A stretch of DNA of 64,000 bases from Mucilaginibacter sp. OK283 (GTDB taxonomy: Bacteria; Bacteroidota; Bacteroidia; Sphingobacteriales; Sphingobacteriaceae): positions 186,001-250,000 of the forward strand of contig NZ_FODR01000007.1 in the NCBI RefSeq assembly GCF_900110415.1, written 5' to 3'. The notes beneath the pieces are model-generated. The model ran no database searches, had not been told where the DNA came from, and saw only the letters and a program-made list of their open reading frames with translations. A program made the position numbers and the translations under genes. This document shows, one piece after another, positions 20,924 through 47,264 of this stretch. The number at the start of each line of letters is the position of its first letter. The stretch's first letter is position 1.

Positions 20924-21298
20924 AAGTAATAAACAAGCAGGCTGGATAAATGTTTGAGTACACACGAATTGAGCAGATTAAATCGAATTTCACGAATTGA
21001 ACTAACACGAATTGTACGAATTGAGGCGAATTTCACGAATTTGCATAGTTCGCCAAATTTTAAGCTCAGTATTAGTTGCAATTAGTAAACCAACTTTGAA
21101 CCCTTTGTTTGCGCTAATTCGCTTCAATTCGTGTTAATCTTCTTTAATAAAATTAAAAAGTTTTAATATGTTTATAAAATTATTGGGATTAGCTATTGTG
21201 ACACATAAAAAGCAAGGTTTATCATAACTTTGTTAGGCGAGCGGGATAATTGGCGTTAGATAATTTCAGGAAAATATTACTCAAAACACAAACTATCA
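20924..21298. other. Intergenic region with AATTCGTG-type repeats
   Basis: This gap of about 375 bp upstream of the glycan utilization locus contains repeated ACACGAATT/TTTCACGAATT motifs at 20961-21041 and the opposite orientation (CAATTCGTGTTAA) at 21123-21136. The motif is shared with the 160-bp tandem repeats at 45636-46115. The rest is AT-rich, with a -7 promoter box near the end. Confidence 0.6.
21225..21232 (+). promoter_or_regulatory. Bacteroidota-type -7 box upstream of the GH20 gene
   Basis: TAACTTTG is an exact match to the TAnnTTTG -7 element used by the Bacteroidota primary sigma factor. It would place the transcript start about 60 bp before the hexosaminidase ATG. No TTTG is present at the ideal -33 distance, only a TTG about 26 bp upstream, so activity may need help. 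Confidence 0.45.
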
Positions 21299-45209: not shown

Positions 45210-45530
45210 TTACCAGAAACCATGAAACGGGAAAAGGATGAGCCGGTAAAACCGGGAGGGTGGCACATTTGAAGCCTGGCTAATGTTGAACCTTGCAAGT
45301 GTGTAAGCTGCACTCAGATCAACAGCGGTAAAGAAAGCTGCCGGATGCACCGTAACCTGTAATGCAGGCGCATTAATTTCGGTATTCGTCTCGGCAATTA
45401 ATTGGTCATGGCGGGTGTTTTGTTTAACACTCGCTTTATTGCTGTCATGTTTGCCGGTATAAGCGTGTGCCTGTCCTGGCCCGCTTATATGTAAAGCGAA
45501 GAACAAGGTAACCACCAATAAAGATTTCAT
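45210..45530 (-). CDS. Small exported hypothetical protein
   Basis: A 106-aa protein with signal peptide MKSLLVVTLFFALHISGPG cleaved near AHA-Y. The mature part of about 80 aa has no recognised domain and ends FYRLILFPFHGFW. The ATG at 45530 is chosen because an exact -7 box on the minus strand (TATCTTTG, 45557-45550) lies 20 bp upstream. An ATG at 45545 would be too close to it, and a longer frame to 45608 runs through that promoter. Function unknown; a periplasmic accessory role is possible. Confidence 0.6.
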   Translation of the reverse strand: MKSLLVVTLFFALHISGPGQAHAYTGKHDSNKASVKQNTRHDQLIAETNTEINAPALQVTVHPAAFFTAVDLSAAYTLARFNISQASNVPPSRFYRLILFPFHGFW

Positions 45531-45549
45531 CAACCTGGACAGCATGGGG

Positions 45550-45557
45550 CAAAGATA
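45550..45557 (-). promoter_or_regulatory. -7 box of the small exported protein gene
   Basis: TATCTTTG on the minus strand matches TAnnTTTG. It decides the start of the downstream gene, since an upstream start would fall before the transcript begins. No clear -33 element. Confidence 0.45.
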
Positions 45558-45635
45558 ATGTTTTTTGGCAGGATGATGGCGAAGCGCATTTACAGCAGGG
45601 AATTGCATTTAAATATTTAACTTTCGTTTCTCATA

Positions 45636-46115
45636 AACTGTGATTTGAGTTGACACGAATTTAAATACAGAAAGTTCAGATTTAATCGAATTTCACGAAT
45701 TTTTCGATTGCGTGTCCTTAAATGGAGGTGCCGAACAATTTTAAAATTCGTGAAATTCGATTAAATTATATCCGACTTAGCAGGTATTCGTGTTTAACTG
45801 TGATTTGAGTTGACACGAATTTAAATGCAGAAAGGTCAGATTTAATCGAATTTCACGAATTTTTCGATTTCGTGTCCTTAATTGGAGGTGCCGAACAATT
45901 TTAAAATTCGTGAAATTCGATTAAATTATAGCCGACTTGACAGGTATTCGTGTTTAACTGTGATTTGAGTTGACACGAATTTAAATGCAGAAGGGGCAGA
46001 TTTAATCGAATTTCACAAATTTTTCGATTGCGTGTCCTTAAATGGAGGTGCCGAACAATTTTAAAATTCGTGAAATTCGATTGAATTGTAGCCGACTTGA
46101 CAGGCATTCGTGTCT
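45636..46115. repeat. Three tandem 160-bp nested palindromic repeats
   Basis: Units begin AACTGTGATTTGAGTTGACA at 45636, 45796 and 45956, so the period is exactly 160 bp. Each unit contains a long inner inverted repeat (TTTAATCGAATTTCACGAA and complement, about 22 bp per arm) around a conserved loop with GGAGGTGCCGAACA. Outer ACACGAAT/ATTCGTGT arms surround it. Copies differ at only a few positions. It is not a CRISPR array, since repeats are contiguous and no unique spacers occur. The motif recurs at 20961-21136. It fills most of the gap 45546-46202. Confidence 0.85.
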
Positions 46116-46202
46116 AAAAAAAATGAAACCTTCGCTGTCGATTTCCCTGATCAATAAATAAAATGCATCCTGTCAAATCAAAAAAATACATAAGTTTAGC
46201 CA

Positions 46203-47264
46203 ATGAAATTTAGCGAAGCGGTTGTAAACAATAAAGATCACAACATTGAATGGATAAATAATTTGCGGCTGATCAGCATGTTTGCCGTTATTGTGTTACA
46301 TACCGCCTCGCCCTTGCTTTTTGGCTATAAAAGTGTGCCTTTAAATGATTGGCTCACCGGCGATGTTTACAACGCGCTTGTGCGCTTTGCTGTGCCGGTT
46401 TTTGTGATGATAACCGGGGCGCTGTTGTTACATCGCCAATATGGGTTGAGAGATTTTTTGAAAAAGCGTATCGGCAGGCTTATTCTTCCTTTTTTGTTTT
46501 GGAGCCTGGTTTATGTTGCCTACCGGCTGTATAACGAGGAGTTTACGTTTACCGGTCATTTGTGGCCCGATGTAAAATTTGTTTTAAATCAACTCAAATC
46601 AGGAGCGTATTATCATTTATGGTATGTGTACCTGTTAATAGGGCTGTACCTGTTTATTCCTGTCTTAGGCAAGTTTGTACAGCATGCTACCGAAAAGGAA
46701 ATATTGTATTTTCTGGTGATTTGGTTTTTGGCGATGTTGTTGGCCACACCATATTTAAGCATTTTTAATACCGCTGTAGATATTCATAATTTTACAGGCT
46801 ATATTGGCTACCTGGTATTAGGTCATTACCTTACTTACAAGCGGTTCAACTTTCGGGCATTGCCGTATATTGCCGCCCTTGTGTTCGTCGCCCTGGTGGC
46901 TTTAATAAGCTGGGGTACCTACTATTTACAGGTAAAAGATCATGAGCTTAAAACATTCTTTTATGAACCGGTTGGTCCTTTTGTGGTTGTGTTGGCTACA
47001 TCCGCTTTCTTGATAGCCAAATACACCAAATTGAAACTTAATAAAACCGTAAAACGCATTTGCGATAATGCGGGTAAATATACCCTCGGTATTTACCTGA
47101 GCCATGCCCTGGTATTAAGCATCTTTGATTTAAACGATATTAATTTTACCATTTTTAACCCTGTGTTGAGCATTCCGTTAATAGCTTTTGTTTGCTTTTT
47201 ACTGTCGTGGCTGTTGGTATATGGCATGAGCAAGGTGCCGGTAATTAAACATCTGGTTGGATAG
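46203..47264 (+). CDS. Membrane acyltransferase (acyltransferase 3 family)
   Basis: A 353-aa polytopic protein with about ten hydrophobic segments. NLRLISMFAVIVLHTASPLLF at about residues 20-40 contains the family's invariant His, and a basic patch FLKKRIGRLILPFLFW follows. Such proteins transfer acetyl or succinyl groups to surface polysaccharides or lipids across the inner membrane (OafA/WecH type). It stands alone after the tandem repeats; the following membrane hydrolase gene is 81 bp away. The acceptor is unknown. Confidence 0.87.
   Translation: MKFSEAVVNNKDHNIEWINNLRLISMFAVIVLHTASPLLFGYKSVPLNDWLTGDVYNALVRFAVPVFVMITGALLLHRQYGLRDFLKKRIGRLILPFLFWSLVYVAYRLYNEEFTFTGHLWPDVKFVLNQLKSGAYYHLWYVYLLIGLYLFIPVLGKFVQHATEKEILYFLVIWFLAMLLATPYLSIFNTAVDIHNFTGYIGYLVLGHYLTYKRFNFRALPYIAALVFVALVALISWGTYYLQVKDHELKTFFYEPVGPFVVVLATSAFLIAKYTKLKLNKTVKRICDNAGKYTLGIYLSHALVLSIFDLNDINFTIFNPVLSIPLIAFVCFLLSWLLVYGMSKVPVIKHLVG

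Follow-up and report, generated by a model that had tools for sequence, protein, structure and literature searches.

The genome of Mucilaginibacter sp. OK283, a soil bacterium, carries three palindromic 160-bp units in tandem, without a gene, at 45636-46115 of the window (the whole 64-kb stretch of DNA analysed here). To what kind of element do these units belong, and how did a palindrome with no gene of its own come to be repeated three times at one site?

Structure of the array

The array is intergenic, between a 132-aa ORF and an Acyl_transf_3 gene, and no ORF lies within the units; ORF calls around it were mechanical, and the genome is a draft of 7.19 Mb in 36 contigs. Tandem Repeats Finder placed the repeat at 45636-46117, with a period of 160, 3.0 copies and a score of 866. 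Together with the repeat search, this bore out an earlier note, made from the letters alone, that had described three tandem units of this period. The nested hairpin described there was also found, with outer arms of 8 bp (ACACGAAT/ATTCGTGT) as given, and with inner arms of 24 bp, rather than about 22 bp, flanking a 39-bp loop (Table 1). The inner arms are perfect in units 1 and 2, while those of unit 3 have one mismatch and one G-T pair. The folding that the note had anticipated was computed for unit 1, whose RNA had a fold energy of -51.8 kcal/mol (z -6.2) on the + strand and -45.6 (z -7.6) on the - strand, far more stable than shuffles, none of 200 of which reached it on either strand. A search of the 64-kb window against Rfam gave no match.

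The copies had been called near-identical and their duplication recent. Comparison of the units contradicted the first description and did not support the second. The units differ pairwise at 7, 12 and 9 of 160 positions (4.4-7.5%), whereas two strains of the species differ in the coding flank at 33 of 1062 positions (3.1%; 25 of 354 third positions, 7%). With more divergence between copies than between strains in the coding flank, recent duplication is not established; nor is an assembly collapse evident.

Table 1. Coordinates, in the window, of the array, its parts, its flanking genes and a second member of the palindrome family.
Feature	Position	Strand	Source
Second palindrome-family member of the window, with CACGAATT words followed by AATTCGTG at 21126	20963..21133	none	Motif search
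132-aa ORF flanking the array, no Pfam match	45210..45608	-	ORF list and Pfam
Whole array, with its three palindromic units of 160 bp in tandem	45636..46115	none	Tandem Repeats Finder and repeat search
Unit 1	45636..45795	none	Repeat search; RNA fold
Unit 1 left outer arm, ACACGAAT	45653..45660	+	Read from sequence
Unit 1 left inner arm, ATTTAATCGAATTTCACGAATTTT, with the family words TCGAATT and CACGAATT; core recurs genome-wide	45680..45703	+	Repeat search
Unit 1 right inner arm, AAAATTCGTGAAATTCGATTAAAT	45743..45766	+	Repeat search
Unit 1 right outer arm, ATTCGTGT	45786..45793	+	Read from sequence
Unit 2, differing from unit 1 at 7 positions	45796..45955	none	Repeat search and copy comparison
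Unit 2 left inner arm	45840..45863	+	Repeat search
Unit 2 right inner arm	45903..45926	+	Repeat search
Unit 3, differing at 12 positions from unit 1 and at 9 from unit 2	45956..46115	none	Repeat search and copy comparison
Unit 3 left inner arm, with a single substitution (CACAAATT)	46000..46023	+	Sequence reading and copy comparison
Unit 3 right inner arm	46063..46086	+	Repeat search
Acyl_transf_3 gene (PF01757) flanking the array; anchor of the empty-site comparison	46203..47264	+	ORF list and Pfam

The arms are dispersed, the whole unit is not

In the OK283 genome the whole 160-bp unit is found at a single locus; what recurs elsewhere is limited to its ends, over up to about 50 bp. The arm core ATTCGTGAAATTCG (CGAATTTCACGAATT/AATTCGTGAAATTCG) has about 69 copies in the genome at one mismatch or fewer, as compared with four for the reversed control. 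These copies are clustered between genes; CACGAAT words mark the outer side of a cluster, the opposite end carries inverted words, and the interiors vary from copy to copy. Recurrence of the motif elsewhere in the window, also claimed earlier, was confirmed by nine matches at two mismatches or fewer against 0.18 expected, including one at 20984-21041.

Named genomes were scanned for hairpins with arms separated by a 25-55-nt gap. Among the matches listed, the arm hairpin occurred in Flavobacterium, Prevotella, Mucilaginibacter and other Bacteroidota, and in MAGs of Chloroflexi, Verrucomicrobia and Acidobacteria. Viral contigs contained no exact hairpin, and phage was set aside as a vector of the palindrome on that ground. 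Clustering of the ORFs adjoining hairpins in the named genomes showed no enrichment of a mobile gene; the neighbours were mostly orthologous. Neither a paper containing the exact arm sequence nor an enzyme for CACGAATT...AATTCGTG-type palindromes was found in the literature searched, in which subscription papers were thinly covered, so that absence is no proof of novelty.

GxxExxY genes are enclosed by inverted arms

The array holds no mobilising gene, as had been observed, and the candidate family GxxExxY (PF13366) is also absent from the window. GxxExxY (PF13366/TIGR04256), a predicted RecB/Cas4-like PD-(D/E)XK nuclease, was present in 18 of the 19 palindrome-carrying genomes. One such gene in OK283 (C14:98918-99262), confirmed as TIGR04256, is enclosed exactly by clusters of inverted CACGAATT words. 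Between the arms of this cassette and the array there are shared 15- and 16-mers, whereas no shared word in 342 control pieces was longer than 13. The array has two marks of what we define here as the GxxExxY-linked palindrome family, inverted arms of CACGAATT type and a gene-carrying version in the same genome.

The generality of this arrangement was assessed by local alignment of the 260 bp to the left of each gene with the reverse complement of the 260 bp to its right. Scores were compared with those of dinucleotide shuffles, with a cut-off of z>4. Inverted repeats were found around 25 of 27 PF13366 genes in a first set and 16 of 27 in a second, separately drawn one (41/54), as compared with 7 of 288 random genes from the same genome set, these controls being mechanical ORFs from 20 regions. 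The remaining 13 of the 54 loci were without clear arms. The words are also oriented: CRCRRAKW words around 28 PF13366 genes pointed inward in 80 cases and outward in 17, against 35 inward and 51 outward around the 288 controls. The arms are built of ~9-11-bp words of related classes (CACGAATT, CACGGATT, CACAGAGA, CACAAAG and CGCAAAGG). Palindrome-poor genomes sometimes hold many GxxExxY genes, but with other word classes, and only one of four plasmid-borne genes had an arm score >16. On a plasmid of Sphingomonas parapaucimobilis, a GxxExxY gene within the fab operon has fabD on one side and, at a distance of 2 bp, fabG on the other; its arm-like words are all short (score 22).

The motif D..ExK..Q..tYL was conserved across 53 GxxExxY proteins, and the PDB held no sequence relative. 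A role as a defence gene was dropped since PADLOC gave no match for GxxExxY. In the literature searched, GxxExxY appears in two papers, one of which names it only beside a CRISPR-associated RT.

Gain, loss and amplification

The array was missing from the orthologous site in G257, a complete genome of the same species. That site, orthologous to window 45565-46160, carries a different palindrome block of GTAG/CTAC words (GTAGCCTTTACGAGGC...GCCTCGTAGAGGCTAC), which looks like a REP-type block. At 28 further loci with an Acyl_transf_3 homologue the array was absent, and none had CACGAATT words upstream. The gene-carrying form varied in the same way: at the dtd-mazG site, the arm-GxxExxY-arm cassette was present in six genomes of the genus and absent in others, in several of which the two genes lie about 20 bp apart; the length of the empty site varies. 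In one genome the dtd-mazG gap contains a TGTCATTGCGAGCGAGGTACGAGCGAAGC palindrome where others carry the cassette, so that palindromes of more than one class occupy a single site. A clean target-site duplication was not seen, G257 carrying other DNA at the array site. Most dispersed copies were common to OK283 and G257, which suggests that turnover is slow and activity low.

Tandem arrays of CACGAATT units were recurrent, with 59 bp x12.5, 56 bp x6, 202 bp x2.7 and 125 bp x1.9. G213, a genome of the same genus, has a GxxExxY cassette whose left arm contains an array of 60 bp x7.8 (L354, 1979-2441), and the 59-bp x12.5 array at a separate site (L505, 418-1153). The sequence TTTGAGTGAACACGAATT in the G213 array unit resembles TTTGAGTTGACACGAATT of the window array. 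The window array is one more case of tandem amplification of CACGAATT units.

The search across genome and strains that the earlier note proposed thus returned the ends of the unit at many places, the whole unit at one, and neither unit nor array at the site in G257. Its suggestion of a mobile palindromic unit is partly supported, by the dispersal of the arms across phyla, the strain polymorphism of the array and the existence of gene-carrying versions.

Palindromes around other small genes

Genes of PF05635 (S23/IVP) had the same inverted-repeat arrangement at 24 of 29 loci, with words different from the GxxExxY class. At eight loci of OK283 that encode the four-helix-bundle S23/IVP, the inverted-repeat words were AGTATCAAGTAGTTAGTATCAAG, GTTCATGGTTCATGG, TTAAGTCTGAAGTC, GATGTGCAGATTTCAGAT and AATTTGAAAATTTGAGGATTTG; these loci may be intergenic counterparts of the 23S rRNA IVS. 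Small GIY-YIG (PF01541) genes, meant as a control family, also had strong inverted-repeat flanks (score >16 in 16 of 20), so a link with palindromes may extend to small, sporadically distributed genes at large. Their flank repeats, seen at ten loci, were of another class (TTTGTCATTGCGAGGAACGAAGCAATC, GTCATGCTGAGC). CGTC-type REPs without a dedicated transposase have been described (PMC3733652), and GIY-YIG is a candidate enzyme for them if the repeat classes are the same.

Comparison with known systems

The family resembles REP/BIME/REPIN sequences and their RAYT (TnpA_REP), which have many intergenic palindromes per genome and the same palindromes flanking a single-gene nuclease (PMC6006769, PMC3733652); slow turnover and an excess of gene-less over gene-carrying copies are further points of likeness. 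It differs from them in its association with a PD-(D/E)XK family member instead of a Y1 HuH transposase, in its arms of iterated ~9-11-bp words, in its much longer hairpins and in its tandem amplification. The 23S rRNA IVS has terminal inverted repeats around a small S23/IVP ORF (PMC4990558) and is similarly sporadic, and S23 genes elsewhere in the genomes examined share word-built flanks. The array, however, is intergenic and gene-less, and its gene-carrying relatives encode GxxExxY; as it is not in rRNA, has no S23 ORF inside and lies in a window without an Rfam match, it was not classed as an IVS. Our best reading, by analogy, is that the palindrome family would work like REP/RAYT or the 23S rRNA IVS while being a member of neither.

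As in MITEs, the array is gene-less, has terminal inverted repeats and is related to longer gene-carrying copies, but interiors in this family are not conserved between copies and a clean target-site duplication was not seen. A GTTTAAC at the unit boundary brought integron attC sites into consideration, but the arms, being nearly perfect, do not resemble attC, and no attC architecture was seen.

Origin of the array

We favour, at a probability of roughly 55%, the reading that the array is a gene-less, three-fold tandemly amplified derivative of the GxxExxY-linked palindrome family, copied through the action of the nuclease. The gene-carrying form would be an intergenic cassette of inverted repeat, GxxExxY gene and inverted repeat. 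GxxExxY, as a predicted nuclease, would recognise the paired words or the hairpin or cruciform that they form, and cut there. Repair after cutting would then copy, move or tandemly duplicate the palindrome, and would do so in trans for gene-less copies. If repair copies the palindrome in this way, the gene-less palindromes would be derivatives that depend on the gene-carrying form much as REPs depend on RAYTs, and so non-autonomous. Nuclease activity, recognition of the arms and action in trans are proposed here from sequence comparison.

The main rival is passive spread, by slippage, template switching or gene conversion among AT-rich word repeats, with the GxxExxY, S23 and GIY-YIG genes as passengers that insert or persist within palindromes. 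The tandem arrays, whose periods range widely (56-202 bp), resemble slippage products, three unrelated gene families have the same arrangement, and copies are mostly common to both strains, all of which would be expected of such an origin. What it does not predict is one word type across phyla, pointing consistently inward at one gene family, and we give it about half the weight of nuclease-driven copying or a little less. Selection for host use of the hairpin in RNA or DNA, as a terminator, RNase III site, mRNA stabiliser or protein-binding site, is possible but unsupported, and we think it unlikely. It would fit the stable folds on both strands and the intergenic placement, together with the excess of convergent over divergent sites in other genomes (23 vs 10) and the fact that some copies keep their place, 12-15 bp from each stop codon, in different Flavobacterium species. 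Yet the array is absent in the same-species strain and at every other homologous locus examined, the OK283 genome is without a 3'-end bias (9 divergent vs 4 convergent), the Flavobacterium copies have no U-tract after the right arm, and Rfam gave no match. Intrinsic terminators in particular were rejected on the A-tracts, not T-tracts, that follow the right arm in Flavobacterium and on the absence of the bias in OK283. In three Flavobacterium genomes the hairpin lies between the stop codons of the same convergent gene pair, with T-runs before it and A-runs after it.

Movement of the array as a REP/REPIN sequence by a RAYT (Y1 HuH) transposase is less likely still and would be a considerable surprise. 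The many-copy intergenic palindromes, four Y1_Tnp matches in the OK283 genome and the atypical flanks of Bacteroidota RAYTs of subclass 2.6 (PMC6006769) speak for it; it failed two defining tests, since no Y1 gene of OK283 is flanked by the motif, the one examined in full carrying other repeats, and the GT[AG]G guide, part of the REP/RAYT definition (PMC6006769), is absent at the hairpin foot. A Y1_Tnp (RAYT-like) gene about 70 kb from the array (C17:160690-164034) has flank repeats of its own (CGTACCTACGGCACGC...). An error of assembly in the copy number, envisaged by the earlier note, could be suspected in a 36-contig draft when the array is missing from a complete genome of the same species, but each unit has distinct substitutions and the G257 site holds unrelated DNA, not one unit. 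Its likelihood is close to nil.

Implications

More tentatively than for the array itself, and at somewhat under even odds, we propose that palindromes of short iterated words across phyla are mobilised or maintained by GxxExxY, that S23/IVP and small GIY-YIG genes form parallel systems with their own word classes, and that the window array is a gene-less amplified copy. Such repeats, selfish or semi-selfish, would form a class that has been little described. The GxxExxY link, which is strong and was replicated in the second set of loci, provides a candidate enzyme for the palindromes of several phyla and a candidate substrate for the uncharacterised GxxExxY, and both can be tested. It also suggests that REP/RAYT and the rRNA IVS are perhaps two cases of a wider pattern, in which a small nuclease or nucleic-acid-binding protein is paired with its own palindrome, and of which the window array would itself be a modest instance.
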